From an uncultured Luminiphilus sp. (GTDB lineage: Bacteria; Pseudomonadota; Gammaproteobacteria; Pseudomonadales; Halieaceae): a stretch of 64,000 bases of DNA. A program made the translations under genes and the position numbers. Under the pieces are notes generated by a model. That model saw nothing but the letters and a program-made list of their open reading frames with translations, was not told the origin of the DNA and did not search any database. The DNA is taken from the NCBI GenBank assembly GCA_943787485.1, contig CALSMP010000003.1:62001-126000 (forward strand). Direction: 5' to 3'. How positions within the stretch are numbered: the stretch's first letter is position 1; every line of letters starts with the position of its first letter. Of this stretch, positions 8,607 through 33,698 are shown piece by piece.

Positions 8607-9086
8607 TTACAGCGGACGATCTGCCGTTCTCAAGTGGTTCAGTAAACCTCTGGATGCCTCAGTAATTAAGTCGAGCACCTGCTCAAAACCCTCATCTCCC
8701 CCGTAATAGGGATCCGGCACATCCCGCGGTGCATCCGAACCTGCGAATGCCAAAAAGCGGTGCAGCTCGGCCGATGCATCCACTGGCCTGAGTATCTCGA
8801 GGTCCTCAACGTTGCTGTCATCCATGGCTATGACAAAATCAAAATCGTAAAAATCTGCCGCGGTGGCCTGACGTGCCCGCAAGCCCGAAATGTCAACGCC
8901 GCGACCTTTTGCCGTCATTACTGCACGGGCATCAGGCGGCTTTCCGGCATGCCAATTAGCGGTGCCAGCCGAGTCGATGCGGATTTGATCAGCAACACCT
9001 TGCTCCTGACAAACCCTTCGAAAAACGCCCTCCGCCGTGGGTGAGCGACAAATATTCCCGAGGCAAACAAACAGTACAGAAACCAT
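8607..9086 (-). CDS. Low molecular weight protein-tyrosine phosphatase
   Basis: 159 residues, full length for the family. The P-loop CX5R(S/T) is at residues 8-15 (CLGNICRS) directly after the first strand, and the general-acid loop DPYYGG is near residue 124. Cytoplasmic; it should dephosphorylate phosphotyrosine on proteins by a cysteinyl-phosphate intermediate. Bacterial members often act with a tyrosine kinase in polysaccharide export (Wzb, Etp), but no kinase or polysaccharide gene lies nearby, so the partner is unknown. The gene is divergent from the M28 peptidase gene across about 135 bases that must hold both promoters. Confidence 0.93.
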   Translation of the reverse strand: MVSVLFVCLGNICRSPTAEGVFRRVCQEQGVADQIRIDSAGTANWHAGKPPDARAVMTAKGRGVDISGLRARQATAADFYDFDFVIAMDDSNVEDLEILRPVDASAELHRFLAFAGSDAPRDVPDPYYGGDEGFEQVLDLITEASRGLLNHLRTADRPL

Positions 9087-9221
9087 AGCAATTCATCGTT
9101 TATCGACAACAGAAGAGGTGGTGACATTCTTCGCGAGGGCGGAATAATCTCACGTCGGGAGCTCGCGACCTACTGACAGTTTTTGGTTAAGCTGGGCAAC
9201 CCCACCGTCAGGATACACGTC

Positions 9222-15358: not shown

Positions 15359-16399
15359 CTACAGCAGGGGCTGGATGTGCTCGGCAAATCGATGAAGGTC
15401 CTTAAGATAGTGCGGGAAGGTCAACATAACCAGATCGACACCAAGTTGGTGAGCCTCGCGTAGCTGTTCGGCAACGTCCTCGGCGGTTCCATGCACATGG
15501 ACGCCGCCACCGGAGGCAGCGAGCATATCGGAGGTAAAGGAATCAAACGAACCACTACCTGCAGTCAAGTCATGCAGCCAGTTTTCCGTGGCAACCGGGT
15601 CTTTTGCTTCGATGATGGCCTGCAACTGATCCTCTGCCTGATCTCGGGACTCGCCCCAAATCACAAACGGAAATATCGCGGTTCTGACGGTACGGCCGTG
15701 ACTGGTTGCCCGGGTGTTTATATCCGACACTATCGCACCCACTTCAGGAATTGAGGGAGTAGAAATAAAGGCCCAATCGCAAAGCCTTGCTGTCATTTCC
15801 TTAGCGTCGTGGGAAGCCCCCGCGTTTGCAATCTTCGGAGGTACTCGCGGCACCGGAGAAGCCTCGCCTGCTGTTATCTGATACCAATCACTACTGAAGT
15901 CAAACGGTTGGGCTTCTTGAGACCAGAGATTGCGCAAAATTTCCACGAACGCGGCTGTCCGCTCGTAGCGACGCGCATGATCTTCCAGTGTGATACCCAT
16001 CATACCGAATTCTCGTTCACTCCAACCGCTGACGACGTTTAGGCCCCAGCGGTCGTTACTGATATGGGCGAGCGTTGCACCCATCTTTGCAATCACAAAA
16101 GGGTGAAACAAGGGGACGTGCACCGTTGAAAAAATATTAATGCGGCTCGTTGCACGAAGTAAAGCTGACGCCCATGTCGTCGTCTCCAGCGATGTGCCCA
16201 AAAAATTGGTGTCGCCACCGAATCCCCGCCAACGGGATACGGGGAACAAATACTCAAACCCATAGCTCTCTGCTGCAAGAGCAATGGCTTCGTTGGAGGC
16301 GTAGGTCCATTGATTCTCATCCACTTCATGGGTGGAGATTGAGGGCATGTTTGAGCAATTGGGCATAAACAAGCCGAGGGACAGCCGCCTCTGAGCCAT
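15359..16399 (-). CDS. LLM class flavin-dependent monooxygenase
   Basis: 346 residues, typical for bacterial luciferase-like (LLM) monooxygenases. The sequence around NVVSGWSEREFGMMGI near residue 120 and the PPKIANAGAS segment near 190 are characteristic of the SfnG/SsuD/RutA branch, which uses reduced FMN supplied by a separate reductase. These enzymes desulfonate or open rings or oxidise ketones; the exact substrate cannot be read. No flavin reductase is in the window. It starts 16 bases before the P450 stop, so the two are almost certainly co-transcribed. Confidence 0.87.
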   Translation of the reverse strand: MAQRRLSLGLFMPNCSNMPSISTHEVDENQWTYASNEAIALAAESYGFEYLFPVSRWRGFGGDTNFLGTSLETTTWASALLRATSRINIFSTVHVPLFHPFVIAKMGATLAHISNDRWGLNVVSGWSEREFGMMGITLEDHARRYERTAAFVEILRNLWSQEAQPFDFSSDWYQITAGEASPVPRVPPKIANAGASHDAKEMTARLCDWAFISTPSIPEVGAIVSDINTRATSHGRTVRTAIFPFVIWGESRDQAEDQLQAIIEAKDPVATENWLHDLTAGSGSFDSFTSDMLAASGGGVHVHGTAEDVAEQLREAHQLGVDLVMLTFPHYLKDLHRFAEHIQPLL

Positions 16400-16415: not shown

Positions 16416-17654
16416 CTAACCAGAATGTAATGACACTGGGAGTGAGGAAAATCCCCGAAATAAAAAGGCTTGTCGCTGCTCCGCACCGTCGATATCCACT
16501 ATGAAGTCGGGAAAGTGCGTAAAAAGCTCCTCCAAAAAAACTTTACCTTCAAGGCGGGCAAGCGCAGCACCAACGCAGTAATGAATGCCACCCCCAAAAG
16601 TGAGTGGCTTTTGCTCTCGCGGTGAAATATCGAACACCTCGGGCTGGTCAAAAACCAACGCATCCCGATTCGCAGCCGCAACAATAGTCAGCACCCGATC
16701 CCCTTCAGGGATCTCAACACCGGCAATAGCCTGTGGGCTCAACGCGGTACGGTAAGTCGCCTGAAGCGATGACTCGTATCGAAGAATTTCCTCGGTCGCA
16801 GCTTCTGCAAGCGAGTGGTCTGCCACCAGCTTTTTCCTCTGGTCTCCATGACTCCCAAACAAATACATGCCATTACCAATCATGTGTGCGGTGGTCTCGA
16901 AGCCGGCACCGAATAGCCCTATCACCGAAGTAGTCAATTCTTCCTGCGTTAGGGCGTCTGCGCCCTCACCTGCCTGCACCATGGCTGTCGTGAGATCGTC
17001 TTTCGGCGATTTTCGACGACGCTCAAAGAGTTCATCAAAAAAATCAGTGAGAAAATCCATCTGGCGGTTTGCCAGGGCGAGCTCTTCTTGCGCAAGCGCG
17101 CGAGTCTCAAAAACAGGGAAGGTATCGGCGACCGCCTGATTAAGCTGCAGCAGAAGCTCTTCAGAAAACTCATCTTCTTCCAAGCCCAGCATGTCGCACA
17201 TCACAAGGGTGGGAAACAAATAAGCAAAGCGGGTAATAAAGTTGCTGTCTGAGTCCTCTGAAAACCTCATCAGCTGAGCCTTCGCCAGCTCACGGATGCG
17301 GGGCTCCATTTCCCGTATTCGCTTGAGCGACAGCGCACTGGCCACCAGGTTTCTGACGCGGGTATGTTGCGGCGGATCTTGCATCACGAAAACCCGAGAG
17401 AGCCAGGCATAAGAGGACTGCGCCAGCACATCAAAATCATCGTCGTAGAACAAACGAATATTGCGAACGAAGTCGCCCTGCCCAAAGTTTTTATCTGTCA
17501 AAACGGTGCGGTTATCGGCGTACCGAGTCACCACCCAAAAACCAAGGTCCGACCGGTGAATCGGATCATGCTCTCTCAGGTAAGAGAAATAAGGATAAGG
17601 ATCCCGGAGTAACCCGGGATCCATGGGGTTAAAGCTATAGCCGGGGCCCAACAA
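16416..17654 (-). CDS. Cytochrome P450
   Basis: 412 residues with a TTG start at 17654; an in-frame TGA lies a few codons upstream, and the internal ATG at 17624 would cut off the conserved N-terminal segment GYSFNPMDP. Class I bacterial P450: I-helix AGFETTAHM near residue 240, ExxR as EILR near 287, and heme loop FGGGIHYCVGAALARLEG with the axial Cys near 358. It needs a ferredoxin and reductase, neither of which is nearby. It follows the TonB receptor gene by 39 bases and precedes the LLM gene, which suggests that a compound taken up by the receptor is hydroxylated here. Confidence 0.93.
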   Translation of the reverse strand: MLGPGYSFNPMDPGLLRDPYPYFSYLREHDPIHRSDLGFWVVTRYADNRTVLTDKNFGQGDFVRNIRLFYDDDFDVLAQSSYAWLSRVFVMQDPPQHTRVRNLVASALSLKRIREMEPRIRELAKAQLMRFSEDSDSNFITRFAYLFPTLVMCDMLGLEEDEFSEELLLQLNQAVADTFPVFETRALAQEELALANRQMDFLTDFFDELFERRRKSPKDDLTTAMVQAGEGADALTQEELTTSVIGLFGAGFETTAHMIGNGMYLFGSHGDQRKKLVADHSLAEAATEEILRYESSLQATYRTALSPQAIAGVEIPEGDRVLTIVAAANRDALVFDQPEVFDISPREQKPLTFGGGIHYCVGAALARLEGKVFLEELFTHFPDFIVDIDGAEQRQAFLFRGFSSLPVSLHSG

Positions 17655-17693: not shown

Positions 17694-19892
17694 CTAAAAC
17701 TGAACGCCCAGCGTGGCGCCATAGGTTCTTGGCGGCAACACGGATCCCACTCGCAGCGAATCATAGAGCGGCGCTGTGATGATGTTATTTGATATCACCT
17801 CTTCATCACTCAGGTTTCTACCCCACACACTAAAGAACCACCGATCGTTGAAGGTATAATCAATGCTCGCATTAAATTGCTCATAGGCATCCTGATAGGC
17901 ATCGGTACGATTCCATTCAGTAAAGTAGACATCGTCTTGATAATAGGCCTCGCCACGAAGTCGCAATACGCCGTTACCCATTTCTGTCTCCCAGTTAACG
18001 CCGATTTTAGCGGTGCTCTCGGGGGCATTCGGTAAGGTGTTTCCACTGAGGTCAGCTATGGCAAAGCCATTGGCGTAATCACCGTTGAAGAATTCCTGGT
18101 ACTCCGCACTCAGGTAAGTCAGATAAAAGTCGATGGAAAACCCGTTGCCCAGATTTCCATCTATTTCCAGCTCTACGCCGTAGTTTTCTGCTTCAGCCGC
18201 ATTAATGGTGGACACCGTACTGGTCTCATCAACAAAGGAAATCTGCAGATCGGCGTAGTCGTAGAAAAAGGCCGCCACTGAATAGTTCAAGGTACCAGCG
18301 GCATTGCTGCCCTTGATGCCAAACTCAAACGCATCAACGGTTTCCGGATCGAGCGCCGGGCTCAAGCTCCCCGTGTTGATTACCCCGGACTTGAATGCTT
18401 CGGTGTAAGTACCATAGAGCATCAAAGTGTCACTTGGAGTCCATTGGACCGTGACCCGCGGCGTAACATCATTCCAGCTCGCACGCTGGTCGGTCGGCAC
18501 ATTCAGCTGGATCGCATCAAAGATAAAGGATCCTGTACCAGCTCGCTCCTCATAGTTGTAACGTAATCCACCGATGATCGCGAGCTGATCGCTCAACCGG
18601 AAAGTGGCCTCTGCATAGGCTCCCCATGCCTCGATATCAACATCCCCGTCCTGCAGGTAGTTACCACCATTAATGGCATCGCCAATCGGCGTGCCGCAAA
18701 GCTCGGGCGCTAGAAGTGAGCAAATGTTCGTGAGCGGTACCTTAACCTCGCCGTATAACTCCTCGTCGAAATACATCACCCCGGCAATAATATCGAGCCG
18801 ATCGGCGCTGTAATTAAGAATGAATTCCTGACCGAAGGAATCACTCTCTTCGGTATAGTTATTTTGCCCAAACAGATTAGCGTCAGTTGAGTCAAGGTCG
18901 TCGCGCAAAAATCGATCCATGCTCTGAACCGACGTGATCGAACGCAGGCTCAGGTTGTCGGATAGCTCCCAGTTCAACGTCAGGTTGGCCAGCTGGCCGT
19001 CTCGATCGTTCAATGCTTCTTGATCAGAGTTGATGTCGTGGAAGCCACCGCCCACCATATCGACAGTTTGGCCGCCCATAAAAATAACGGCCAAAGGAAC
19101 GGGAGCGGCTGAGCCGGCAGATTGACCGAAATAGTTGAAGGCGTAGTTGTTATCGTCTTCCTCGTAATACTGGAGTGAGAGCATGCCGGTGAATGGACCA
19201 CCGTTGTCATACGCAAACGTCGCTCGAACTGCCTGTGCATCGCGGTTATTCACATCGTCGCCGCTGTAGATATTGGTACCGTACCCATCCCTTTTCTCTA
19301 AGCTTGTCGCCACGCGCATGGAGAATGCGTCGCCCATGGGTACATCAACGGCACCCTGGAATTTGGCCAAGCCATAGTTGCCTACGGAAAAATTGAGATA
19401 ACCACCAAACTCGTCACCGGGCTTACTGGTGACCATATTAATGGCACCCGCCGTTGCGCCGCGCCCGTAGAGGGTGCCCTGGGGTCCTCGCAGAACTTCA
19501 ACCTGATCAAGATCGAACATGCCCATCAACTGCGCCGCCGGCCGCGGCACGATGGCACCGTCTTGCAAGAAGGCAACGGCACCCTCACCCCCGATATCAA
19601 TACTGGTCATACCGATGCCACGCATGAACACGCGCGCAAAACCAAACTGATCACCGAGAGAAAGATTGGGAATCGCTACCTGCATATCGCGGATTTCCTG
19701 AATACCTCCCGGCTGAATAGCATCAGAACCTAAGACGTTTGCGGCTCCCGCTAAATCTTGAAGCGCCACTGATCTTTTGGTTGCCGTAACGACGACCTCT
19801 TCCAGCGCATTCTCCTGTGCAATAGCGCTTACGCTGGAAGCCAGCACACAGAGACCAAAACCCATTGCTTTTTTTGTGTTGAATGTACTCAT
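17694..19892 (-). CDS. TonB-dependent outer-membrane receptor
   Basis: 732 residues from the ATG at 19892, which has GAGGG upstream; a TTG two codons earlier is less likely. Signal peptide with AIAQEN cleavage region near residue 26, TonB-box-like ALEEVVVTATKR, plug domain with VEVLRGPQGTLYGRGATAGAIN near 130, and a 22-strand-type barrel ending in Phe (YGATLGVQF). It imports a ligand across the outer membrane with TonB energy. Because it is embedded in an operon with a P450, an LLM oxygenase and CoA ligases, the ligand is more likely a hydrophobic carbon source than iron. This substrate call is inference. Confidence 0.93.
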   Translation of the reverse strand: MSTFNTKKAMGFGLCVLASSVSAIAQENALEEVVVTATKRSVALQDLAGAANVLGSDAIQPGGIQEIRDMQVAIPNLSLGDQFGFARVFMRGIGMTSIDIGGEGAVAFLQDGAIVPRPAAQLMGMFDLDQVEVLRGPQGTLYGRGATAGAINMVTSKPGDEFGGYLNFSVGNYGLAKFQGAVDVPMGDAFSMRVATSLEKRDGYGTNIYSGDDVNNRDAQAVRATFAYDNGGPFTGMLSLQYYEEDDNNYAFNYFGQSAGSAAPVPLAVIFMGGQTVDMVGGGFHDINSDQEALNDRDGQLANLTLNWELSDNLSLRSITSVQSMDRFLRDDLDSTDANLFGQNNYTEESDSFGQEFILNYSADRLDIIAGVMYFDEELYGEVKVPLTNICSLLAPELCGTPIGDAINGGNYLQDGDVDIEAWGAYAEATFRLSDQLAIIGGLRYNYEERAGTGSFIFDAIQLNVPTDQRASWNDVTPRVTVQWTPSDTLMLYGTYTEAFKSGVINTGSLSPALDPETVDAFEFGIKGSNAAGTLNYSVAAFFYDYADLQISFVDETSTVSTINAAEAENYGVELEIDGNLGNGFSIDFYLTYLSAEYQEFFNGDYANGFAIADLSGNTLPNAPESTAKIGVNWETEMGNGVLRLRGEAYYQDDVYFTEWNRTDAYQDAYEQFNASIDYTFNDRWFFSVWGRNLSDEEVISNNIITAPLYDSLRVGSVLPPRTYGATLGVQF

Positions 19893-19938
19893 GATCAATC
19901 CCTCAGAGGTTTTGCTTAGTTATTGTAAATTAAGGTGG

Positions 19939-21558
19939 TTATCGTTTTTTTTCCCGCTTGAATTTTATGTCATACATTTCCCGATCCCAGCTATCAGACG
20001 TTACCCCTTCGCTTCTGAGCACATGCTTCATAACTTTGGATGAGGGCGTCTTGGGCAGCTCGTCTAATACTCTTATATAGCGAGGCACCATAAAATAAGG
20101 CATCCGTTCGCCGAGAAATTCAACAAGATCTTTTGGATCAATATCTTTGCCGGCAACGGGCGCCACAGAAATCATGACGTCATCCTCGCCGAGGTCACTG
20201 GGAACGGCATACGCTGCGGCCTCGCGAACGGAAGGATAGGCAACAACCTCGGCCTCCACCTCAAAGGATGAAATATTCTCACCCCGTCGTCGCATTGCAT
20301 CCTTCATGCGGTCCACAAAATAGAAGTACCCCTCGTCATCCTGACGGAAGCAGTCGCCCGTATGGAACCAGCCATTTCGCCACGCCTCTGCAGTGGCCTC
20401 AGGATTTTTGTAATAGCCGCTGTTCATTCCCCATGGTCGGTCGGTTCGCACGATCATCTCGCCGATTTCCCCCGGCGCGACCTCGCAATCATTTTCATCC
20501 ACGAGCCGAACGTCAACGCCCTCCCGCTTTTTGCCGCAGGTGCCGCGCTTAGTGGGGTTTGGCTCTGAGACAATCGGAGAAGAAATTTCCGTCATATTGA
20601 AAATGGTGTAGACGTCAATTCCAAACCGCTCATAGAACTCGGTACAGGTCTCGGTTAGTGGCACCATGAATGCCAGCCGCACATCGTGGTTTTTATCGTC
20701 GTCACTCGGCTCCTGCTTAAGCAAGAAAGTGGTCATCACGCCCAACAGAAAAAATGCCGTGGTTTTACTTTCCCTGACAAAAGGCCAGAATTTCTCGGTG
20801 TCAAAGCCATCCATCACCGCGATCGATCCACCTCGGCAAAGCATGACAAAGATAACGCCCATACCGCCGATGTGGAAAATGGGCATGTTGATCAGGAAGC
20901 GATCTTCACCCGTTACGAAGTGCCAGGTCTCGGGACCTGCGTTCGTGAAAATGTGCAGATAGGAAGAAAGAACCCCTTTTGAAGGCCCGGTAGTGCCAGA
21001 CGTAAAAATAATTGACTGCACATCCCAAGGCTCAATAGGCCGATCTAATTCAGGCGGCTCACTCGCGGTTGATTCTACGCCGTAGAAATCCACTCCATTA
21101 ATGGCTTCAGGTAAAACGTACTCGCCAACAGCGATGGCTTTTTCGATCTGAGCAACGTCTACCTCTCCAAGCCGCTCGAGGAGCTGGCCATGAGCAACGA
21201 TCACCTTGGCATCGGAAACATTGAGGACATGGCTGAGCACCTGCCCCTTATAGGCAGTGTTCAGCGGCACAAATACCGCACCGAGATAGTTAATAGCAAA
21301 AAAGGTCAGGATGGCTTCTTTACTGTCAAACATCCATACCGCGACGTGATCGCCGCGGCCGACGCCCTGATCATGAAAACCCCCGGCGAGTTTTCGCACC
21401 TTTTGACGCAGCTGCGCGTAAGACCAGGTCTCGCCGTCCTGAAAAACGGCGAAATCCTCAGATCCTTTCTCGTCAGCCAAGTTGTCGATTAAGTAGCGGG
21501 TTACACAACGCTCTCTTGGCGGTATTCGGGGATCGAATAACACTGATGGATCAGTCAT
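19939..21558 (-). CDS. AMP-binding CoA ligase (CaiC-like)
   Basis: 539 residues from the ATG at 21558, which overlaps the end of the TetR gene by 8 bases (ATGACTGA); a longer frame to 21585 is open but less well placed. ATP loop TSGTTGPSKGVLSSY near residue 184, acyl site motif FNMTEISSP near 325, TGDCFRQDDEGYFYFVDR near 400 with RRRGENISSFEVE, and catalytic Lys in TPSSKVMKH near 518. Resembles crotonobetaine/carnitine-CoA ligase and 2-hydroxyisobutyrate-CoA ligase-like enzymes. It should activate a small or polar carboxylic acid. Co-translation with the TetR gene and proximity to the B12 mutase make it the likely supplier of the mutase pathway's CoA ester. Confidence 0.88.
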   Translation of the reverse strand: MTDPSVLFDPRIPPRERCVTRYLIDNLADEKGSEDFAVFQDGETWSYAQLRQKVRKLAGGFHDQGVGRGDHVAVWMFDSKEAILTFFAINYLGAVFVPLNTAYKGQVLSHVLNVSDAKVIVAHGQLLERLGEVDVAQIEKAIAVGEYVLPEAINGVDFYGVESTASEPPELDRPIEPWDVQSIIFTSGTTGPSKGVLSSYLHIFTNAGPETWHFVTGEDRFLINMPIFHIGGMGVIFVMLCRGGSIAVMDGFDTEKFWPFVRESKTTAFFLLGVMTTFLLKQEPSDDDKNHDVRLAFMVPLTETCTEFYERFGIDVYTIFNMTEISSPIVSEPNPTKRGTCGKKREGVDVRLVDENDCEVAPGEIGEMIVRTDRPWGMNSGYYKNPEATAEAWRNGWFHTGDCFRQDDEGYFYFVDRMKDAMRRRGENISSFEVEAEVVAYPSVREAAAYAVPSDLGEDDVMISVAPVAGKDIDPKDLVEFLGERMPYFMVPRYIRVLDELPKTPSSKVMKHVLRSEGVTSDSWDREMYDIKFKREKKR

Positions 21559-22252
21559 GGCTCTCACTTTCAAGGGCTTGTTCATTCAAAGGCACAATCG
21601 GTTGTACCCGGGAGACAGTAGGCTCAGGCAACTCCACCGAAACCTGCACCAATCGCATAATCATTTCTTTAACGTGGGCAGTAATCTCTATCCGTGTACG
21701 CTTTCCAGAGGGCGAATACCAGAGGGATACCCAGGTCATGATGCCGCCAATGGTCGTGGCAGTCAGGACCGGGTCTTCTACAGACAAATCGCTTTCAGCG
21801 CTTCCTTGGGCTAATAAGGTGCCAAGCTTGTGGTCAAAGGCGCTGCGCAGTTCTCTGATAGTTCTCGCCTGGATTCGATCAAGGTGCTTTTCTTCGCGGG
21901 TATAGACCACAATGAAGTCTTGGTAATCGAAGATAATGTCCAGCACCGACTCAATTAAAATCGACAGCCGCTGCCGGGGCGCTGTTCGTAATGCCACCGC
22001 CCGCTCTACCGCATCCAGCGACAGTGAAATTCCGGTCTTACAGATATCGAAGAGGAGTTCGCCTTTGTTGGCATAGTGTAGATAAATTGATGGTTTGGTG
22101 ATGTGAAGCGTCTTGGCGACCGCCTCTAGCGTCGTGTTCTCATAACCCTCTTGATAAAACAGGCGGCACGCTTCCTCCCGAATCCGCCGGCGCTTAAAGT
22201 CCGCCACTTCATCCTTAAGCGTCAGTGATTTAGCCAAGCCGCCAGCAGCCAT
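21551..22252 (-). CDS. TetR family transcriptional regulator
   Basis: 233 residues. The N-terminal helix-turn-helix domain is clear around residues 18-65 (CRLFYQEGYENTTLEAVAK, then ITKPSIYLHYANKGELL). The C-terminal ligand domain has a hydrophobic dimerisation helix (TATTIGGIMTWVSLWY), as in FadR/KstR-like acyl-CoA-sensing members. It starts one base after the stop of the iron alcohol dehydrogenase and overlaps the CoA ligase by 8 bases. Local repression of both divergent operons is the most likely role; a candidate operator lies at 23468-23486. A CoA ester as effector is inference from context. Confidence 0.9.
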   Translation of the reverse strand: MAAGGLAKSLTLKDEVADFKRRRIREEACRLFYQEGYENTTLEAVAKTLHITKPSIYLHYANKGELLFDICKTGISLSLDAVERAVALRTAPRQRLSILIESVLDIIFDYQDFIVVYTREEKHLDRIQARTIRELRSAFDHKLGTLLAQGSAESDLSVEDPVLTATTIGGIMTWVSLWYSPSGKRTRIEITAHVKEMIMRLVQVSVELPEPTVSRVQPIVPLNEQALESESHD

Positions 22253-22253
22253 A

Positions 22254-23432
22254 TCAACGAGCCATTTCTAGTATCGTTTTTACATCGTGGGGGCCATCTA
22301 TCGGCCGAGGATTTGTGCGCGACCAAAAATCAAGCATGGTGTATTCAGCAATGATATCGAGTTTATCCTCACCAACCCCCACTGCCTCGAGAGAACGAGG
22401 CATCCCCAGACCCGAAATAAATTCATCCAGTATGTCGCTGGCATCGCGCTCCGGCTGATTAAAGCAGGCGCTTATCTGCTGTTGTTTATCACCGTTTACG
22501 GGCTTGTTGTAAGCAAGCACTGCCGGTGCCATAACACAGGAGCAGTAGCCGTGGGGTACGTCAGCTGTTCCCCCAAGGACATGACCAATGGCATGGCTGG
22601 CTCCCATGGGTACGCCACCAATGATGGGAATCATCGACTGCCAGGCGCCAACCTGACAGCGCAGGCGCGCGTCGAGGTTAGAAGGATCGGCTTTCACCGC
22701 GGGTAAGGCCTCCGCCAGAATCCGCAAAGCGCTACCGGCGACACCATCACAAAAATAATTAGAATGTTTCGAGCCAAAGGCCTCCAACGCATGATCGACC
22801 GCTCGCACCCCGGTAGAAAACCAGAGCCATTCAGGGGTATGCACAGTGAGAGCGGGATCAAGAACAATCGCAATGGGTGCCATCATCCGATGGGTGTAGC
22901 CCTGCTTTTTATTCTCCCGATCATCTGTCACACCGCCCATGGTGTTGAATTCACCTCCGGAAAGCGTCGTCGGGCAGCAGATGACCCTTATATCGGGGGC
23001 TTCGAAGTCGGGCACGACGGTGTCGCCGTTGTCATCTACGTAAACATAGAACCCTTCGAAGTCCTCATGCTTTTTAATTCCGTGTTTCAGCCCAAGCGCA
23101 ATCACCTTGCCCGCATCTGTCACCGACCCACCACCCACCGTGATGATCAAATCGGCGTTACAAGCTCTTGCTGCCTCCATGGCTTTTAGCACGTCGGTGC
23201 GCGGCCCATGAGGTCCGATGCCATCAAACACAGCGGCTACGGAATCACCCAAGGCAGACTCTATGAGTGAAATTTCATCGGTTTGCGCTCGCAGCGTGGA
23301 ACTGACGAGGAGGAAGACCCGCTTGGCGTTAAGCGTTTTCACTTCTTCCGCGAGCGCGTCCGCGGCGCGTCGCCCTATGTGCACCCGCTCAGTGGCCGTA
23401 AGGCCAAGTGTGGCACTGTCTGCAGAGAACAT
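22254..23432 (-). CDS. Iron-containing alcohol dehydrogenase
   Basis: 392 residues, full length for the group III (iron-dependent) alcohol dehydrogenase family. NAD-binding GGGSVTDAGKVIAL lies near residue 100, PTTLSGGEF near 153, and the metal ligands are visible as DHALEAFGS (near 212), ASHAIGHVLGGTADVPHG (near 280) and a further His. The closest functional groups I recognise are maleylacetate reductase-like and 4-hydroxybutyrate or lactaldehyde dehydrogenase-like enzymes; the substrate is not certain. It is the first gene of the minus-strand operon and diverges from the mutase operon across 113 bases. Confidence 0.88.
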   Translation of the reverse strand: MFSADSATLGLTATERVHIGRRAADALAEEVKTLNAKRVFLLVSSTLRAQTDEISLIESALGDSVAAVFDGIGPHGPRTDVLKAMEAARACNADLIITVGGGSVTDAGKVIALGLKHGIKKHEDFEGFYVYVDDNGDTVVPDFEAPDIRVICCPTTLSGGEFNTMGGVTDDRENKKQGYTHRMMAPIAIVLDPALTVHTPEWLWFSTGVRAVDHALEAFGSKHSNYFCDGVAGSALRILAEALPAVKADPSNLDARLRCQVGAWQSMIPIIGGVPMGASHAIGHVLGGTADVPHGYCSCVMAPAVLAYNKPVNGDKQQQISACFNQPERDASDILDEFISGLGMPRSLEAVGVGEDKLDIIAEYTMLDFWSRTNPRPIDGPHDVKTILEMAR

Positions 23433-23467
23433 GACGAACCCCCGTTGTTATAGTTTTGACCGGAGGG

Positions 23468-23486
23468 TATCAATCCTATACTGATA
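23468..23486. promoter_or_regulatory. Candidate operator/promoter between divergent operons
   Basis: TATCAATCCTATACTGATA is a 19-base inverted repeat with five-base arms (TATCA/TGATA) and one further inner pair. It covers a TATACT -10-like box (23477-23482) that lies 15 bases after TTGACC (23456-23461) on the + strand. It sits in the 113-base gap between the iron alcohol dehydrogenase (with the TetR gene behind it) and the mutase operon, where a local TetR repressor would be expected to act. Confidence 0.4.
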
Positions 23487-23545
23487 AGTAAATTGCTGTA
23501 TGCTAGCTCCATAAGCCCCTAAAAAAATAGCGACCACGGTAAGCC

Positions 23546-25177
23546 ATGGCAGAAAAATCCCCCCCAAAAGCGGCTTTTGCCGCATCCGGCATCGAGCTCA
23601 AAACTTTTTACACCGAGTCGGATATTCCCAAGGCGCATCGCGCCCGCATGAACCTGGCGCCAGGCGATGCGCCGTATCAGCGTGGATTCCACCCTGCGGG
23701 CTACCGCAGCAAGCCCTGGCGAATTTTCCAGCTTAGCGGCTTTGGCAAACCCGAGGATGAAAACGAGCGAATCAAGTTTTTGCTCAAAAATGGCGAAACC
23801 GGCTTCATCATGGAGCACGACCGCAACACCGCAGACCACTGCTACAACGTCGATCACCCAGACGTAGTCGCGCGGCGCGAGGACGTCGGCCTGACGGGCG
23901 CAGTCATGCAAAGCGTTAGAGACACAGCGATATGCATGGATGGCCTCCCCATCGATACCAGTTTCGGACACGCGGGCGGCGCGGTGGTGCAACACGCGCC
24001 ATTTGCTCTGGCAGCCTATTGGACGGTCGCAAAACAGCGGGGATTTGATCTGGCCAAGATAGCGGGCACAGGCCAGAGTGATTTTAATCTCACCTACCTC
24101 GGCTGTGTGACGAAAGAGCAAATCCCCACCCAGGCCGGGTTACGCTTCAACGCCGATATCATCGAATTCTGTGATCAATACCTGCCGCGGTGGGTACCTG
24201 TCTCTATCGCTGGCTACAACGCCGCTGACACTGGTCTTACACCCGACCAAGAGCTAGGCGTTCTGTTTGCCAATGCCGTCGAGTATCTGGATGAAATAAA
24301 ACGTCGGGGCAATATCGATGTACGAAGCGCAGCCAAGGCCTGTGGAGGCGTCAGTTTCCGCGCGTCAATCCAGATTATTGAAGAGGCTTGTAAAATGCGA
24401 GCCGCCCGGCTGATGTGGTCTGACCTACTCCGGCAACGCTACGACATCACTGACCCCAAGATAGCGAATCTGCGAATTCACTGCGTCACCGCTGGCTCGA
24501 AGATGACCTATCAGCAGCCGCTGAACAACATTGTCCGGGGCACGCTGATGGCATTGGGCGCCGTATTTGGCGGCGTCCAATCGCTGGGTGTTTCAGGCTA
24601 CGACGAGGCGCTTTCCATACCCTCTGAACACGCGCACCAGATGTCAGTCAGAATCCAGCAGATTATTCAGGAAGAGACGGGCATCGCCCATGTGACCGAC
24701 CCACTCGGTGGTTCCTACTACATCGAAACGCTGACCGCCCAACTCGCGGAGAAAGCCTGGCAGTTCTTTGAGGAAATCCAAGGGCAGGGGGGCTATCTGG
24801 CAGCACTCGACTCCGGCTGGCTCCACAGTAAGGCCTCGGATAACCAGTACAAAGAGTTCATGGACACCGAATCAGGCGAGCAAAAGATCATTGGCGTTAA
24901 TTGTTTTCGGGATGATGAGTCCCCGTTTCATGTAGACGGTTTTATGGGAACGGACGATGCGTTTGACGTGGCCACCTCAAGGTTGCAAGACGTCTTGAGA
25001 ACACGGCATGAAACGGCGGCGGCATCTGCGCTAAAACAGCTGGAGGCAGACTGTAAAGGCGAGGTCAACATCATGCCCGCCATGATGCAAGCCATGGATG
25101 CTGAGGTCACGCTTGGTGAGATAGGCAACGTATTCCGGCAGGTGTATGGCAACTGGAATACTCCAATACAGACCTGA
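23546..25177 (+). CDS. B12-dependent acyl-CoA mutase, large subunit, divergent active site
   Basis: 543 residues; a catalytic TIM-barrel subunit of the methylmalonyl-CoA mutase superfamily without the B12 domain, as in the split enzymes IcmA, HcmA and archaeal MCM. Recognisable segments: PWRIFQLSGFG (MCM PWTIRQYAGF), LAKIAGTGQSDF, VSIAGYNAADTG, AARLMWSDLL, HVTDPLGGSYYIE and IGVNCFRDDE. By-eye alignment to MCM gives Leu63 at the Tyr89 position, Glu90 at Ala116, Cys187 at Arg207 and Asn225 at the catalytic His244. MCM has Tyr/Ala/Arg/His; ICM has Phe at 89 and Gln at 207; HCM has Ile and Asp at the first two. So this is none of the known enzymes by signature. It presumably uses adenosylcobalamin to rearrange an unknown acyl-CoA; loss of the His could alter the mechanism. 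The small subunit follows 10 bases later. Confidence 0.88.
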   Translation: MAEKSPPKAAFAASGIELKTFYTESDIPKAHRARMNLAPGDAPYQRGFHPAGYRSKPWRIFQLSGFGKPEDENERIKFLLKNGETGFIMEHDRNTADHCYNVDHPDVVARREDVGLTGAVMQSVRDTAICMDGLPIDTSFGHAGGAVVQHAPFALAAYWTVAKQRGFDLAKIAGTGQSDFNLTYLGCVTKEQIPTQAGLRFNADIIEFCDQYLPRWVPVSIAGYNAADTGLTPDQELGVLFANAVEYLDEIKRRGNIDVRSAAKACGGVSFRASIQIIEEACKMRAARLMWSDLLRQRYDITDPKIANLRIHCVTAGSKMTYQQPLNNIVRGTLMALGAVFGGVQSLGVSGYDEALSIPSEHAHQMSVRIQQIIQEETGIAHVTDPLGGSYYIETLTAQLAEKAWQFFEEIQGQGGYLAALDSGWLHSKASDNQYKEFMDTESGEQKIIGVNCFRDDESPFHVDGFMGTDDAFDVATSRLQDVLRTRHETAAASALKQLEADCKGEVNIMPAMMQAMDAEVTLGEIGNVFRQVYGNWNTPIQT

Positions 25178-25187
25178 GGCAACCCCG

Positions 25188-25574
25188 ATGTCACAAGCAC
25201 AAAAACGTATTCTTATGGCGAAGACTGGACTGGACGGTCACTGGCGGGGCCCCACAATAGTAGCTCGCGCGCTTCGAGACGCAGGCTTCGAAGTCATCAT
25301 GATTGGCATGGCCAATACCGACGACATCGTGTCCGCTGCGGTAGATGAGGACGTTGATTTGGTGGGTCTGAATATTGGCGGCCACATTGATGTGGCGAAA
25401 CGCGCCATTGCCCAAGTTCAGGCTACCCGTCCCGAATTACCGATCTTTGCCGGTGGGACTATTCCACCCCATGCAGCGAAAGACCTTGAAGCCCTTGGGG
25501 TTGAGGTATATCCCCCGGGCTCACAGCTGTCAGACATTGTTGATGCCGCAGAGCGATTGACAGGCAGAAAGTGA
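25188..25574 (+). CDS. B12-binding small subunit of acyl-CoA mutase
   Basis: 128 residues from the ATG at 25188 (GAGG just upstream); the longer frame from 25146 overlaps the large subunit. A stand-alone cobalamin-binding domain: ILMAKTGLDGHWRG carries the base-off motif DxHxxG with the lower-axial His at residue 18 and the conserved Lys at 12. Near residue 95, AGGTIPP is the GG motif. The SxL motif seen in MCM (SSLAAGH) is replaced by LNIGGH. It pairs with the 543-residue subunit to form the holoenzyme. Its stop overlaps the GTG of the GTPase gene (GTGA), so three genes are translationally linked. Confidence 0.9.
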   Translation: MSQAQKRILMAKTGLDGHWRGPTIVARALRDAGFEVIMIGMANTDDIVSAAVDEDVDLVGLNIGGHIDVAKRAIAQVQATRPELPIFAGGTIPPHAAKDLEALGVEVYPPGSQLSDIVDAAERLTGRK

Positions 25575-26524
25575 CCGAGGATTTACCCGCTCAAATTTCG
25601 GCGCTACTGGCGCGTTGCGGTGAAGGAGACCGACTCGCTCTCGCCCGTCTGTTGTCATTGCTCGAACGTGAGCCTGCCGCCGAGGGCTTTATTCGCACCC
25701 AACTCGACAGTACCCCCGCCAAGAGCGCCTTTGTCATTGGATTTACCGGCGCCCCAGGCGCTGGCAAGTCATCGCTGATCAACGCCCTGCTACCCGAGGC
25801 CTGCCAATCGGGTGCCAAGGTCGCGGTGCTGGCAGTTGACCCCAGCTCCCCGGTCTCCGGCGGGGCCTTGCTTGGCGATCGCGTCAGGATGCAGGGCCAT
25901 AGCCAAGGGGCAAATGTCTTCATCCGGTCTATGGCATCGAGGGGTGAAAATGGCGGCCTTACCCGAACAACCGAAACCGCCATTCGGCTCCTGGCGCTCG
26001 GTGGTTGGAACCAAATTTTGGTTGAGACACTCGGTATCGGCCAGGTTGAACTTGATATCGTTAATCTTGCGACCACCGTGGTTGTCGTTTTGACCCCGGG
26101 CTGGGGAGATTCTTTTCAGGCAAACAAGGCAGGACTCACCGAAGTTGGCGATGTCTTTGTTATCAACAAAGCGGATAAGGAAGGACTGAATCAAACCCGC
26201 GTTGATCTTCAGGATTCATTATCGCTTCTCTCCTCCACAATAGCGCCGGTGATCGCTGAAACTGTAGCAACCACTGGACAAGGTATTGCTGAACTTTGGC
26301 AGACAATACGCTCACAGACCACGGCCATGACTGATGCCGGCCTCATAGACCAAAGAAGATCTCTGAGGCAAAGCAAGCTGGTGGAGAAGGCACTGCTTCG
26401 GCACCTTGAGTCTCAGCTGAAGGAGCTCCTCGCCAGTGAAACCGGAAAGTCTGTTCTGAGTGACATTGCGCGGGGGAAGCTAACCCTTGAGGAAGCCTAC
26501 AGAAAACTAGTGACCAAGCTGTAG
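25571..26524 (+). CDS. meaB: MeaB/ArgK-type G3E GTPase chaperone of B12 mutase
   Basis: 317 residues with a GTG start at 25571. Walker A GAPGAGKSS near residue 61, LAVDPSSPVSGGALLGDR (switch region typical of MeaB/MMAA) near 95, ETLGIGQVE near 155, and the specificity motif NKAD near 200. MeaB proteins gate the loading and editing of adenosylcobalamin in their partner mutase and protect it from inactivation. Placement directly after the mutase subunits, with a 4-base overlap, supports a dedicated partner rather than a general MCM chaperone. The usual ETVGVGQSE is ETLGIGQVE here, a small change that parallels the divergence of the mutase. Confidence 0.93.
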   Translation: MTEDLPAQISALLARCGEGDRLALARLLSLLEREPAAEGFIRTQLDSTPAKSAFVIGFTGAPGAGKSSLINALLPEACQSGAKVAVLAVDPSSPVSGGALLGDRVRMQGHSQGANVFIRSMASRGENGGLTRTTETAIRLLALGGWNQILVETLGIGQVELDIVNLATTVVVVLTPGWGDSFQANKAGLTEVGDVFVINKADKEGLNQTRVDLQDSLSLLSSTIAPVIAETVATTGQGIAELWQTIRSQTTAMTDAGLIDQRRSLRQSKLVEKALLRHLESQLKELLASETGKSVLSDIARGKLTLEEAYRKLVTKL

Positions 26525-26550
26525 CAACGTAGATACCGGTGAGGTAGCCC

Positions 26551-27348
26551 ATGACGGAACAAAAGGTGCTGTTAAAGGAGCAACAAAACGGGGTGCTCTG
26601 GCTGACGCTTAACCGACCAGAAGCCCTCAACACCCTAAATCCAAGCCTCACGGCCGCGTTAAGGACAACCTTCGAGGATCTTCGACATCAGCCAGAAATC
26701 AGGATTGTCGTCCTGAAGGCAAATGGGCGAGCATTTTGCGCTGGATTAGACCTGTCGGGTGGGGAATGGTCTACCGAGTCGACGCCCAATTCGCTGCTGG
26801 GGTTACAACAAAGTATTTCCGATATTTTCCGCGCGATGCGGCGCTGTCCCCAACCCATCATAAGCTGTGTTCAAGGAGCTGCCTGCGGCGGTGGGTTTAG
26901 TTTGGCACTGGCCTCGGACATCCGTATTGCTGCCAACACCGCTAAAATGAATGCTGCCTATATAAAGGCGGGCCTCACCGCCTGTGATATGGCTTGCAGC
27001 TATTTGCTACCCCGCCTCATAGGGCTCTCTGTTGCGAGTGAACTCATGATGACTGGCCGCTTTATCGGCGCCGAGAGAGCGCTCGCCGTGAACCTGGTCT
27101 CTCAGGTAGTTCCGGAGGAAGAGCTCGATGCAGCAGCCCAAAGCTTTATTGATGACATGCTAGCCACTTCCCCCATGGGGCTTCGACTGACAAAGGACGG
27201 TCTCAATATGAGTATCGACGCGGGATCTCTCGACGCAGCGATGGCATTGGAGGATCGGCAGCAATCATTGGTCGCCATGACAGAAGATGCTCATGAGGCC
27301 GTTGCAGCATTCATTAATAAGCGCGCACCGAACTGGCAGGATCGCTGA
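26551..27348 (+). CDS. Enoyl-CoA hydratase/isomerase family protein
   Basis: 265 residues, a complete crotonase fold. Oxyanion-hole segments are GRAFCAGLDLSGG near residue 66 and CVQGAACGGGFSLAL near 108. The region that carries the catalytic acids in hydratases reads YIKAGLTACDMACSYLLPRLIG (positions about 132-153), with Asp kept but without the usual Glu pair, so the chemistry may be isomerase, hydrolase or hydratase. It is 26 bases after the MeaB gene with a fair ribosome site, so it is the fourth gene of the mutase operon and likely acts on the mutase substrate or product. Confidence 0.88.
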   Translation: MTEQKVLLKEQQNGVLWLTLNRPEALNTLNPSLTAALRTTFEDLRHQPEIRIVVLKANGRAFCAGLDLSGGEWSTESTPNSLLGLQQSISDIFRAMRRCPQPIISCVQGAACGGGFSLALASDIRIAANTAKMNAAYIKAGLTACDMACSYLLPRLIGLSVASELMMTGRFIGAERALAVNLVSQVVPEEELDAAAQSFIDDMLATSPMGLRLTKDGLNMSIDAGSLDAAMALEDRQQSLVAMTEDAHEAVAAFINKRAPNWQDR

Positions 27349-27484: not shown

Positions 27485-29233
27485 GTGAGTGCCAAAATAG
27501 CCGTCAAAAATCCCTTGGTTATTCTCCATGGAGATGAAATGGCGCAAGTGGCTTTTGATGAGATTCTAAAGCGCTTCGTGCACTCGAAACTTGATATTGA
27601 GCTAGTGGAAATTGACCTTTCGGCGCAGCAGCGACTCGTGAGTAATGGGCAGGTCGTACGCGAAGCGATTGCGGCGCTCAAGAAGCATGGCGTGGGCATC
27701 AAAAATGCCGGGATGACCGTCAATCGCCAGCAGCTTGATGAGTTGCTGGCGCGTCACCCAGAGATCGATGAAAAATCCCTCGACGGTCTGGCGACCAAAT
27801 CTCCGAACGGTGCAATCCGTAAAGGCATTAGTGGCAATATCACCCGGGAAGACATCGAATTTCGTAATTTAAAGAGTGTGCGACCCGACTGGGTAAACCG
27901 CGATATTGAGGTCGACACCATGGAAAGCGGTGGCTTGGATTTCAGCTACAGCGAACTTTCTAATGCGACCGGGGTTGCCAAGGTCATTTTTGTTGGCAGC
28001 AGCGGCGACCCCATCGAGCTGCACCGCCGATCGCTAAACAAAGGCGATCCGTGGATGCTCGCGACCAATGAGTTGGAAGCGGTAAAAGCCTGGGCTCACC
28101 GATTTTTCCAGCGCGCACTGGATGAAAAGCGGGATATTTACCTCGGGCTCAAAGACACCGTGGTCCCCGGCTATGATGGCGTGATGCGCGAGGCAATCGA
28201 AACGATTTATCGCAACGATTATCAGGCGCAGGCAGAAGCCGCAGGCCTGGGTTATCACTATGAATTGATCGACGCACAGGCCGCCCGGATCGTGTCCAAT
28301 CCACCGGAGCGAGCGCTCTGGGGAGTGCCCGATAACGTCAGTGGCATGAAGCTCTTCAAGCTGGTGCAGCAGCTCAAACGCTACGGTCTCCCTGAGCGCA
28401 AGGCGCATGTCTCCATTTCGCGCATGAGTGCCGGCGGTGGTGACCAGTACGGCAGTTACAACACCCCGGCACCCGAGGATGGTGTCATTAAGGTCATTGT
28501 CGATGGCGAGGAAAAGCACGCCCGCCATGTCAAAACCAACGACCCCATACTTTTTATGTCCAATGACCGAGAGGCTATTAAAGATTGGGTAAGCCAGGTC
28601 TTTCAGGACGCAGCGATCAACAAGAAGGAGGTGTATTTCGGTCTGAAGCGCGAGTTCGTCAATTACGACGAGGTATACAGCTCCATCATTTTAGAGATCC
28701 GACAGGAACTCGCGGCGCTCGATACACCACCCCCTTCTTTTATGATCATGCGACCTTCGCGCCAGCTTAGTAAGATGATTTGTGATCCGCCGCGCTGGGG
28801 GCTTTATCCCGCCCAGAATCTGGACGGCGATATTTTTTCCGACATTTCCGCCGCTCTTGGTGGGAGTCTCGCAACAGCCAGCTCTGTGATTATCAGCAAA
28901 GACGGCACCAAGCTTTTCGAGGCCCCTCACGGTACCGCTCACGATCTCTACATGCGTTACCTGGAAACCGATGGTAAGGAGGCGCACTTCAACTCTTCTG
29001 CGCTTATCTTCGCGCTAGCCAATGCGCTGGATGACCTGGCGGGGCGAGAAGACAACGCAGCGCTCGCAACCTACGCAAGCAAGCTTAAAGCGGCATTGAT
29101 CGATACCGTTGATCAGGGCACGGTCACAGGCGACTTGAAAGGTAAGACACTCAACCCTGAGACTGAAACGATTGTTGATATGGCGGGGTTTTTGTCCGCG
29201 GTGGAAGCTAACTTTTTCCCTCAAGTTGCTTAA
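27485..29233 (+). CDS. icd: NADP-dependent isocitrate dehydrogenase, long form
   Basis: 582 residues with a GTG start at 27485 and GAGAGGA upstream. The opening VILHGDEMAQVAFDEIL and TKSPNGAIRKGISGNITRED hold the substrate Ser-Asn-Arg region of isocitrate dehydrogenase, and LDGDIFSDISAALGGSLATA plus EAPHGTAHD near the end are the metal and NADP-binding parts. The length exceeds the usual 400-420 residues; the middle part (about 200-390) is an insert-rich region seen in a bacterial long subtype. It oxidises isocitrate to 2-oxoglutarate in the TCA cycle. It follows the mutase operon after 136 bases and tail-overlaps the CoA ligase gene by 4 bases. Confidence 0.85.
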   Translation: MSAKIAVKNPLVILHGDEMAQVAFDEILKRFVHSKLDIELVEIDLSAQQRLVSNGQVVREAIAALKKHGVGIKNAGMTVNRQQLDELLARHPEIDEKSLDGLATKSPNGAIRKGISGNITREDIEFRNLKSVRPDWVNRDIEVDTMESGGLDFSYSELSNATGVAKVIFVGSSGDPIELHRRSLNKGDPWMLATNELEAVKAWAHRFFQRALDEKRDIYLGLKDTVVPGYDGVMREAIETIYRNDYQAQAEAAGLGYHYELIDAQAARIVSNPPERALWGVPDNVSGMKLFKLVQQLKRYGLPERKAHVSISRMSAGGGDQYGSYNTPAPEDGVIKVIVDGEEKHARHVKTNDPILFMSNDREAIKDWVSQVFQDAAINKKEVYFGLKREFVNYDEVYSSIILEIRQELAALDTPPPSFMIMRPSRQLSKMICDPPRWGLYPAQNLDGDIFSDISAALGGSLATASSVIISKDGTKLFEAPHGTAHDLYMRYLETDGKEAHFNSSALIFALANALDDLAGREDNAALATYASKLKAALIDTVDQGTVTGDLKGKTLNPETETIVDMAGFLSAVEANFFPQVA

Positions 29234-30897
29234 TCGAGGCTGTCGCTTAGCTCGTGACGAAGTATTTTACCTAGCGGATTTCTCGGTAGCGCCGTCACAA
29301 TGCGGATTCGCTCGGGCAGTTTAAATGTGGCCACGCCACAGCCAATAAGATACTCGCATAGCTCATCCAAAGTCGGCGGGTTCTCTTCCTGCGAGGGAAC
29401 CACACAAACGCAAACTCGCTCCCCCAAGTCATCATCCGGGTAGGCACAGACAGCCACCTCTGCCAACCCCTGAAAGCCATCGAGGAGCGCATCTAGCTCT
29501 GAGGGCGATATCTTCATACCACCGCGATTGATAATGTCTTTGAGACGACCAGCAATCCTGTAGTACTCACCCTGATCACCAGTGATATCGACAAGATCAC
29601 CCGTGCGAAAAAAACCATCCTGCGTAAAAACACCGTCGTCTTTTGCACCCAGATACCCATCGAACACGGTGGGGCCGGAAAAACATAGCTCACCGCGATC
29701 CCCAGGGGCTGTCAGCTCCCGACCATCGTCAGGATCAATGACCTTTGATTTGACCGACTCGTGAAGCTCGCCGCGCCATTTGTTACCGCCAAAACCGCTT
29801 CTGGGAAATAATTCTGCCCGAGCTCGAGCATCTGGAATAGCGGTGGGCGACGAAATCAGGGCTATACCCTCATTCGATCCATAAATGTTGTAGATGGCCA
29901 CGCCGTAATCATTCTCAAACACATCAATCATGTCGGGAGCGAGCGGCGCAGAGCCCGAGCCAATAGCACGAAGCTGGCTGAAGTCAAAGCGTCGCCACAG
30001 CTCCGGTTCTTTCGCCAACTTATTGAGCAGCGCGGGCGGCGCAATAGTAAATGTAATCTGCTCTTGCTGGATCTGTTGCAAAAAAACAGGCACATCGAGT
30101 GGGTGATGCAACACCACGCCACAGCCCTCCCGAACGGCCGGAAATAAAAATCCACCCAAAGCAGACATATTCACCATGGGAAACGGATTGAGCAGCAAGT
30201 CCCCCTGTTGGTACTCACTTCCCACTGCCGTCATTCGGCCTGACGCGAGCCACATATTGTGAGAACGCGGCACTCCCTTGGGGGTTCCCGTTGTGCCCGA
30301 GGTCCAACAGACAGAAAAAATAGCATTAGCGTCTCGCGGATGATCACTCAAGTACTGATCTATGCGGCTCTGCTCATCATGGGACAACCCATCTCGACCA
30401 CGCAGCGAGAAATCTTCATCCACGGCAAGAACGGCACTCGAAGCGACGGCAGCCGACCCATGATCCGCAAGGCTTTGGCCTCGAAAGCTACGCGTGCCAA
30501 TAAACCACGAAGGCTCAAGCGCTATCGCGAGCGAGCCAATCTCATGACGCCCGTACTGCACCGGCAGGGGCGAAATAACGACGCCCAGTTTGCTGGCGGC
30601 GTAATAGCATGCCATCAGCTCTACCACGTTAGGCAACTGCACCATCATGCGGTCGCCGTGCCGAACACCTAATGCAAGCAAATCAAGCGCCATGGCGCTA
30701 CTCACGTCATCAAGCTGCTTAAAGCTCAGTCGCTGAGGATCGCCGCCCGTCAATTCCTGCTTATTAAATTGATCAACTGCCGCTACTGCATGCGGTCTCT
30801 CAGCGACTTGATGGGCTAATAACGAGCACAGCGTCGCGCTCCCCCAATAACCGGCATCCTCATACCGTTGAATTCTTTCGGGCGTCGACGTTTGCAT
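29230..30897 (-). CDS. AMP-binding CoA ligase / acyl-adenylate synthetase
   Basis: 555 residues. ATP loop TSGTTGTPKGVPRSH near residue 198, NIYGSNEGIALISSP near 340, TGDLVDITGDQGEYYRIAGR near 435 with GGMKISPSELDALL, and catalytic Lys in PRNPLGKILRHEL near the end. Similar in outline to cyclohexanecarboxylate-CoA ligase and aryl-acid adenylating enzymes. The last gene of a minus-strand set with a carotenoid-oxygenase-type enzyme and two thiolases. It could activate the acid formed after C-C cleavage and aldehyde oxidation. It is the fourth CoA ligase in the first 31 kb. Confidence 0.88.
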   Translation of the reverse strand: MQTSTPERIQRYEDAGYWGSATLCSLLAHQVAERPHAVAAVDQFNKQELTGGDPQRLSFKQLDDVSSAMALDLLALGVRHGDRMMVQLPNVVELMACYYAASKLGVVISPLPVQYGRHEIGSLAIALEPSWFIGTRSFRGQSLADHGSAAVASSAVLAVDEDFSLRGRDGLSHDEQSRIDQYLSDHPRDANAIFSVCWTSGTTGTPKGVPRSHNMWLASGRMTAVGSEYQQGDLLLNPFPMVNMSALGGFLFPAVREGCGVVLHHPLDVPVFLQQIQQEQITFTIAPPALLNKLAKEPELWRRFDFSQLRAIGSGSAPLAPDMIDVFENDYGVAIYNIYGSNEGIALISSPTAIPDARARAELFPRSGFGGNKWRGELHESVKSKVIDPDDGRELTAPGDRGELCFSGPTVFDGYLGAKDDGVFTQDGFFRTGDLVDITGDQGEYYRIAGRLKDIINRGGMKISPSELDALLDGFQGLAEVAVCAYPDDDLGERVCVCVVPSQEENPPTLDELCEYLIGCGVATFKLPERIRIVTALPRNPLGKILRHELSDSLD

Positions 30898-30929
30898 TAG
30901 AATTCAGCGCAACCTGATCGCAACAGTTT

Positions 30930-32387: not shown

Positions 32388-32452
32388 CGCAAAACTCCTC
32401 CTGCTACGGCGCGAAGTACACCGCGCTTCAGGATCCTCAGGTAGCTAGGGTA

Positions 32453-33679: not shown

Positions 33680-33698
33680 GCTACAAAGTCTCCACCTT

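Follow-up and report, generated by a model that had tools for sequence, protein, structure and literature searches.

The window analysed here is a 64-kb stretch of an uncultured Luminiphilus genome (part of a 131-kb contig; genome of 2.67 Mb, 89.7% complete) that carries a gene block around a split B12-dependent acyl-CoA mutase, whose large and small subunits are referred to as MutL and MutS. The block probably serves a catabolic route that would convert a branched acid to its CoA ester, rearrange it by means of the mutase and pass it on to beta-oxidation, the reaction being predicted from sequence. The gene content of the block, the predicted fold and clade of the mutase, its fixed residue changes and the co-conservation of the genes were observed, and we infer a mutase-type reaction because the fold and the cobalamin-, Gln197- and Tyr243-type residues are retained. 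MutL is best classed as a known kind of enzyme, an adenosylcobalamin (AdoCbl)-dependent acyl-CoA mutase, in a new subfamily set apart from the rows compared, which cover methylmalonyl-CoA mutase (MCM), 2-hydroxyisobutyryl-CoA mutase (HCM), ethylmalonyl-CoA mutase (ECM) and the isobutyryl-CoA mutase fusion IcmF. Whether this subfamily, with Asn for His, Glu for Asp and no SxL motif, isomerises an acyl-CoA handled by no known mutase is an even call.

Clade and active site of the mutase

MutL scores 381 bits against TIGR00641, the acyl-CoA mutase large-subunit domain (cut-off 303.8; HcmA, the HCM large subunit of Methylibium petroleiphilum PM1, scores 686), and its fold matches HCM over the whole chain. 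Against NF006944, the NCBIfam equivalog for MCM, the large subunit scored alone gives 340.3 bits and does not reach the cut-off of 876. Both trees, one of 68 rows and one of 49, recover the MutL family as a single group with 100/100 support, and the stem leading to it measures 2.08 changes per column in the first and 2.22 in the second. In the 49-row tree, where the family has 16 rows (100/100), the MCM, HCM (five rows including the PM1 plasmid sequence, 100/97) and ECM rows (four, 100/100) each form a separate supported group apart from it, and IcmF, a single row on a very long branch, is placed with MCM at 88/86. The naming of two ECM rows is backed by neighbours over cut-off, a crotonyl-CoA carboxylase/reductase for L178 and a mesaconyl-CoA hydratase for L177; the other two of L176-L179, which fall in one group with these, took their name from similarity. 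No sister group is claimed for the MutL family, as the long rows L152 and L154 adjoin it with weak support (81/88, 85/42) and long-branch warnings. The initial annotation had suggested that the substrate is none of those known. With MutL nesting in none of the MCM, HCM and ECM groups, nor with IcmF as far as its single row shows, and its neighbouring genes conserved together, this appears likely. RcmAB and IaaGH, two further mutases, are described in PMC7176365 and PMC8360864.

A wide gap in identity surrounds the family. In 369 genomes of the class it was found in the host genome and two others (67% and 65% identity to MutL), the next matches listed lying at 33-35%, and in 398 genomes of the phylum it was found only in the host, with the next match listed at 37%. 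MCM-like proteins of relatives show 33-38%, with the 38% coming from two partial matches, and the plasmid rows listed reach 36.5%. Bridging sequences at 40-60% identity were found neither among the matches listed in the 369 and 398 genomes (E 1e-60, at most three candidates per genome scored), which hold no match between 38% and 65%, nor among the 60 plasmid records listed of 427. Searches of the open-licence PMC literature, several of them broad and returning mostly unrelated papers, gave nothing on the clade, and PMC10100682 has no occurrence of mutase, cobalamin, P450 or vitamin B12. The clade is a deep, seemingly unstudied branch of the acyl-CoA mutases. A near relative of the host (G031) holds two copies each of mutL and the CoA ligase gene of the block (contigs C58 and C63). 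Two loci of the family (L052 and L071) sit in metagenome-assembled genome records titled Klebsiella pneumoniae and Janthinobacterium lividum, titles that may be wrong.

Active-site columns were mapped by HMMER alignment to the MCM structure 5req, in which the Y89F mutation marks the column and chain numbering is offset by one. Rows below 430 residues were left out beforehand, and the 72 MutL-family rows aligned represent 57 distinct sequences. Leu63 of MutL falls on MCM Tyr89 (HCM Ile90), Glu90 on Ala116 (HCM Asp117), Gln177 on Gln197, Tyr224 on Tyr243 and Asn225 on His244; Cys187 falls on Arg207, in a loop with an insertion where the alignment is less sure. The residue string reads LSEQYN in 71 rows and LIEQYN in one, and Leu63, Glu90, Gln177, Gly186, Cys187, Tyr224 and Asn225 are invariant in all 43 distinct aligned sequences. 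At 60% identity or more, Leu occupies the Tyr89 column in 68/68 rows, and Glu and Asn theirs in all 67 covering rows, one row being cut by its contig end. Covering MCM rows have Tyr, Ala and His at the compared columns and HCM rows Ile, Asp and His; His244 is present in all MCM, HCM, ECM and IcmF rows compared and is Asn in the MutL family. MutL therefore has neither the MCM set of Tyr89, Arg207 and His244 (replaced by Leu63, Cys187, within the uncertain loop, and Asn225) nor the HcmA set of Ile90, Asp117, Gln208 and His, which PM1 HcmA shows and for which the family has Leu, Glu, Cys and Asn. The MCM and HCM residues at these columns are presumed to have their generally accepted active-site roles. 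The PDB titles of Y89F and H244A mutants indicate that both MCM positions have been studied before. Since changed first-shell residues rendered one mutase inactive, as reported in PMC11599936, the naturally fixed alternative set of the MutL family is notable. Asn at the His244 column also occurs in two otherwise different rows of genome G807 (L154 and L156; GYN) and is hence not unique to the family; in the alignments compared, it is the full residue set rather than Asn alone that is particular to it.

These data bear on the possibility that MutL is a divergent HCM performing the HcmAB reaction, with Glu in the role of Asp117. Among PDB entries HCM matches best, in sequence as well as in fold, and in the family the residue at Asp117 is acidic and that at Ile90 aliphatic. 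However, the MutL family lies outside the HCM group, neither Gln208 nor the catalytic His is retained, the ligase of the block has no match to that of the PM1 HCM locus, and acyl-CoA dehydrogenase genes, which would be superfluous for 3-hydroxybutyryl-CoA, recur in 14 of 58 stretches. A divergent HCM is improbable, and an HCM or MCM identity was set aside on tree placement and active-site residues.

MutS scores 92.1 bits against the cobalamin-binding domain TIGR00640 (cut-off 57.45), and the DxHxxG motif is present as DGHWRG in 56/56 small subunits read. The SxL stretch, which we take to be a usual motif of the cobalamin domain, is replaced by (N/S/H)-(I/V)-GG, two residues shorter. This replacement was matched in 53/56 small subunits, the remaining three being cut reads that print (S)IGG; the Ser of SxL is retained in about six of the 56 and the Leu in none. 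Loss of SxL, together with Asn for His244 in every family row covering the column, could mean that the Asn225 enzyme is no usual mutase and instead has another radical reaction or a non-catalytic role. Such a function is highly unlikely given the retained DGHxxG, Gln197- and Tyr243-type residues, MeaB and CoA ligase. In addition, the side chain of Asn, too, can donate a hydrogen bond.

The gene block and its conservation

As described in the initial annotation, the split mutase (543 and 128 residues), MeaB and a crotonase form one plus-strand series facing an iron-containing alcohol dehydrogenase (FeADH), a TetR regulator and a CoA ligase, and all genes were found where it had placed them. The plus-strand genes come in the order MutL, MutS, MeaB and crotonase; 10 bases separate the first two, MutS and MeaB overlap by 4 bases, and 26 bases lie between MeaB and the crotonase. 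The minus-strand series diverges from mutL and runs from FeADH through TetR and the ligase to a TonB-dependent receptor, a cytochrome P450 and a luciferase-like monooxygenase (LLM). Co-conservation was scored in 57 related loci with thresholds of our own; 27 of these are shorter than 19 kb, where absences mean little, and counts for the 30 loci of at least 19 kb (long loci) are given alongside. Neighbour genes beyond the block were called by a simple open reading frame script.

23546..25177, plus strand: MutL, large subunit of the split acyl-CoA mutase, 543 residues; Leu63, Glu90, Gln177, Cys187, Tyr224 and Asn225 on MCM active-site columns
25188..25574, plus strand: MutS, cobalamin-binding subunit, 128 residues; DGHWRG motif present, SxL stretch replaced; 55/57 loci, 30/30 long loci
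25571..26524, plus strand: MeaB-type G-protein chaperone; ortholog in 46/57 loci, 26/30 long loci
26551..27348, plus strand: crotonase-fold protein without the two hydratase glutamates, Asp aligned with PaaG-like proteins; 34/57 loci, 22/30 long loci
22254..23432, minus strand: FeADH; 50/57 loci, 27/30 long loci
21551..22252, minus strand: TetR-family regulator; 48/57 loci, 27/30 long loci
19939..21585, minus strand: AMP-forming acyl-CoA ligase, nearest NCBIfam model PRK06155, below cut-off; 50/57 loci, 28/30 long loci
17694..19898, minus strand: TonB-dependent receptor, Pfam plug and barrel over cut-off; 40/57 loci, 25/30 long loci
16416..17654, minus strand: cytochrome P450, nearest solved structures those of vitamin D3 25-hydroxylase; 23/57 loci, 17/30 long loci
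15359..16399, minus strand: LLM, FMN-dependent, SfnG/RutA group; 19/57 loci, 13/30 long loci
23467..23481, strand not applicable: putative operator in the FeADH-mutL divergent region, GTATCAATCCTATAC, inferred from sequence

MutS, MeaB, FeADH, TetR and the ligase occur all together in 42/57 loci and 26/30 long loci, and together with the crotonase in 29/57 and 21/30, which bears out the expectation that the neighbours are conserved together in other genomes. Seven genes outside the block behave differently: six are retained in 0 or 1 of the 57 loci and one, a thiolase, in seven. In Steroidobacteraceae-like loci, the order and strand of the block are altered and the gene set is mostly retained. 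The dedicated MeaB is likewise confirmed as part of the conserved block. The host genome has a second MeaB-like sequence next to its housekeeping MCM (contig C22, about 7694-10662), both in broken frames that reflect either assembly error or decay. Between FeADH and mutL, comparison of the intergenic regions of L032-L036 and L085 revealed a palindrome-like GTATCA-N3-TGATAC, a possible TetR operator, which L033-L035 carry in perfect and the window in imperfect form; inverted repeats of other kinds occupy this region in other loci.

The family mutL and a ligase ortholog (E 1e-120) co-occur in exactly the same 11 of 58 near genomes, the host included, although this is not independent evidence as the genes adjoin. 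In G805, mutL and mutS stand without the other block genes, and ligase (63%), FeADH (65%) and TetR (45%) lie together on another contig. A ligase search in seven genomes gave a match of at least 52% in six; in G807, G808 and G810 it lies at 52-54% and orthology is less sure.

The parallel to HCM loci drawn in the initial annotation is loose. HcmAB (4r3u; PM1 plasmid locus L148) shares split subunits, a MeaB of its own, a nearby CoA ligase and the whole-chain fold match, whereas MutL is 34% identical to the PM1 large subunit, belongs to another clade and has Leu/Glu/Cys/Asn where HCM has Ile/Asp/Gln/His. The ligase of the block gave no blastp match to the PM1 HCM-locus ligase at E 1e-3. The two HCM-type plasmid loci compared (PM1, Agrobacterium) start with the small-subunit gene, followed by those for the ligase, MeaB and the large subunit, and their regulator is of the GntR type, in line with PMC7176365; the present block has another order and TetR. 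The degradation of isobutylene and methyl tert-butyl ether uses alcohol dehydrogenase, aldehyde dehydrogenase, ligase and mutase in series (PMC13188929), a logic similar to that of the present block, which differs in lacking the aldehyde dehydrogenase and in its ligase. MCM (1req, 2xij, 6oxc) shares with MutL/MutS the fold, the cobalamin DxHxxG, Gln197 and Tyr243, but Tyr89, Ala116, Arg207 and His244 are all replaced in MutL and two genes stand for the one of MCM. ECM (L176-L179) also scores over the cut-off of the general domain TIGR00641, yet its rows retain Tyr89, Arg in the Arg207 loop and SYH. IcmF (4xc6; L160) is a one-chain fusion of all domains including the GTPase and retains GYH, whereas these are separate genes here.

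Other unusual mutases were encountered. The alphaproteobacterial genome G807 (that of L073; loci L149-L158) yields 19 mutase-like matches with varied active sites (GYN, YD or GQH for GYH), which by their sequences seem to be several more uncharacterised mutase branches. Two further supported groups have unusual residues around the catalytic His, namely GQH (L102, L112, L158) and GAH (L093, L118, L129, L151, L181); in the GAH-type locus L181, on a Marinobacter plasmid, the mutase stands beside genes for a CoA transferase and for a member of the enoyl-CoA hydratase family.

Predicted pathway and candidate substrates

In the proposed pathway, the ligase of the block would activate a branched carboxylic acid to its CoA ester, and MutL/MutS, kept active by the block's own MeaB, would shift the CoA-carbonyl group to the neighbouring carbon in an AdoCbl-dependent reaction, after which the unblocked acyl-CoA could enter beta-oxidation. 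The acid might, speculatively, have an alpha-quaternary or tertiary carbon and perhaps a polar group held by Glu90. In Halieaceae, the P450, LLM and alcohol dehydrogenase might make it from a larger precursor imported by the TonB-dependent receptor, which is likewise speculative.

Related loci offer clues to this pathway. Over 58 stretches (the 57 loci and the window), the recurring extra genes encode an acyl-CoA dehydrogenase (14), a metallo-beta-lactamase (MBL)-fold protein (12), two types of short-chain dehydrogenase/reductase (SDR; 10 and 6) and a thiolase (6). By similarity, the MBL protein comes closest to organophosphorus hydrolases, lactonases and methyl parathion hydrolase. In L080 and similar loci, SDR, thiolase, FadB-like and acyl-CoA dehydrogenase genes surround the block. 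A Rhodobacteraceae record (L066/L175) has the tripartite ATP-independent periplasmic (TRAP) transporter genes DctP, DctQ and DctM directly upstream of mutL-mutS-ligase, with acyl-CoA dehydrogenase, FadB-like and thiolase genes adjoining. Such neighbours would fit organic-acid uptake, CoA activation, rearrangement and beta-oxidation, and fall short of proof. The CobA/BtuR-type adenosyltransferase of the host genome also agrees with the proposed pathway. For FeADH, the closest enzymes are of the ErcA, 4-hydroxybutyrate and maleylacetate-reductase types, with no model over cut-off.

Several observations weigh against the proposed pathway. Acyl-CoA dehydrogenase, SDR and thiolase clusters accompany only the minority of stretches counted above. 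No aldehyde dehydrogenase is among the identified block genes, and a route from alcohol to acid would need one. With His244 changed to Asn225, catalysis could differ or be slower. An adenosyltransferase of the PF01923 type was not found in the host genome. G269, which has a MutL-family member, offers a best ligase of 37% and unrelated mutL neighbours, and the crotonase is absent from 8/30 long loci. The crotonase also aligns Ser and Tyr with the two glutamates of the FadB hydratase domain, which are catalytic in hydratases. Without these it is apparently no standard hydratase; an Asp of it aligns with the Asp of a Thermus enoyl-CoA hydratase-like protein, presumably of PaaG type. Of the scheme of ligase, mutase and crotonase in the initial annotation, the conserved block stands, and the crotonase step is unproven.

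Specific substrate classes are each clearly less probable than the general pathway. One special case would be a mutase of the pivalyl or isobutyryl type that acts on saturated alpha-quaternary acids lacking a hydroxyl, for example 2,2-dimethyl acids. Leu for Tyr89 and the loss of Arg207 suggest that no second carboxylate is to be expected, and some of the loci share genes for acyl-CoA dehydrogenase, a FadB-like protein and thiolase, but an invariant Glu90 (43/43) would be odd in an apolar pocket. The MutL family also stands apart from IcmF, although IcmF is one long-branched row. This case is doubtful. Alternatively, the mutase could remove a gem-dimethyl or methyl block late in the breakdown of a larger ring-derived acid, such as a terpenoid, carotenoid or sterol fragment. 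The P450 with its vitamin D3 25-hydroxylase likeness, the LLM and the TonB-dependent receptor (23, 19 and 40 of 57 loci) would agree with this, as would the lactonase-like MBL protein and a carotenoid-oxygenase-family gene 3.6 kb beyond the block. However, the P450 is missing from most of the long Steroidobacteraceae-like and alphaproteobacterial loci and the monooxygenase from all of them, the carotenoid-oxygenase gene has a conserved counterpart in 0/57 loci, and the TRAP transporter of one locus suggests a small acid. This second special case is rather unlikely.

More particular links were tried and dropped. A link to carotenoids or ionones by way of the RPE65-family gene fails on the same 0/57 count. 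That gene belongs to a separate minus-strand group (window 29230-34901; CoA ligase, RPE65/carotenoid-oxygenase-family protein, two thiolases) hardly conserved with the mutase block. A steroid C/D-ring link was considered through L087, where a FabK/NPD-type enzyme near mutL gave only FabK below cut-off (NCBIfam) and a CoA-transferase-like frame seen by eye had no NCBIfam (E 1e-30) or Pfam (E 1e-10) match.

To our knowledge, few acyl-CoA mutase substrates are known. The described conversions involve the substituents H, CH3, OH and COOH, and similar rearrangements of hydrocarbons and pivalic acid have been suggested (PMC2847961). Biology has few means of getting past a carbon branch at which beta-oxidation stalls, and a 1,2-shift of the CoA-carbonyl is among them. 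As the clade occurs in records with strain names (Haliea alexandrii, Pseudohaliea rubra, Kineobactrum sediminis and NOR5-3), the question of the substrate is directly testable. The MutL family could reveal to what extent radical chemistry depends on His244, and the MutS family whether loss of SxL changes the cobamides used. If the subfamily does isomerise an acyl-CoA that is new to the mutases, it would provide marine Halieaceae and their relatives with a general route to unblock alpha-quaternary or tertiary-hydroxy acids for beta-oxidation.

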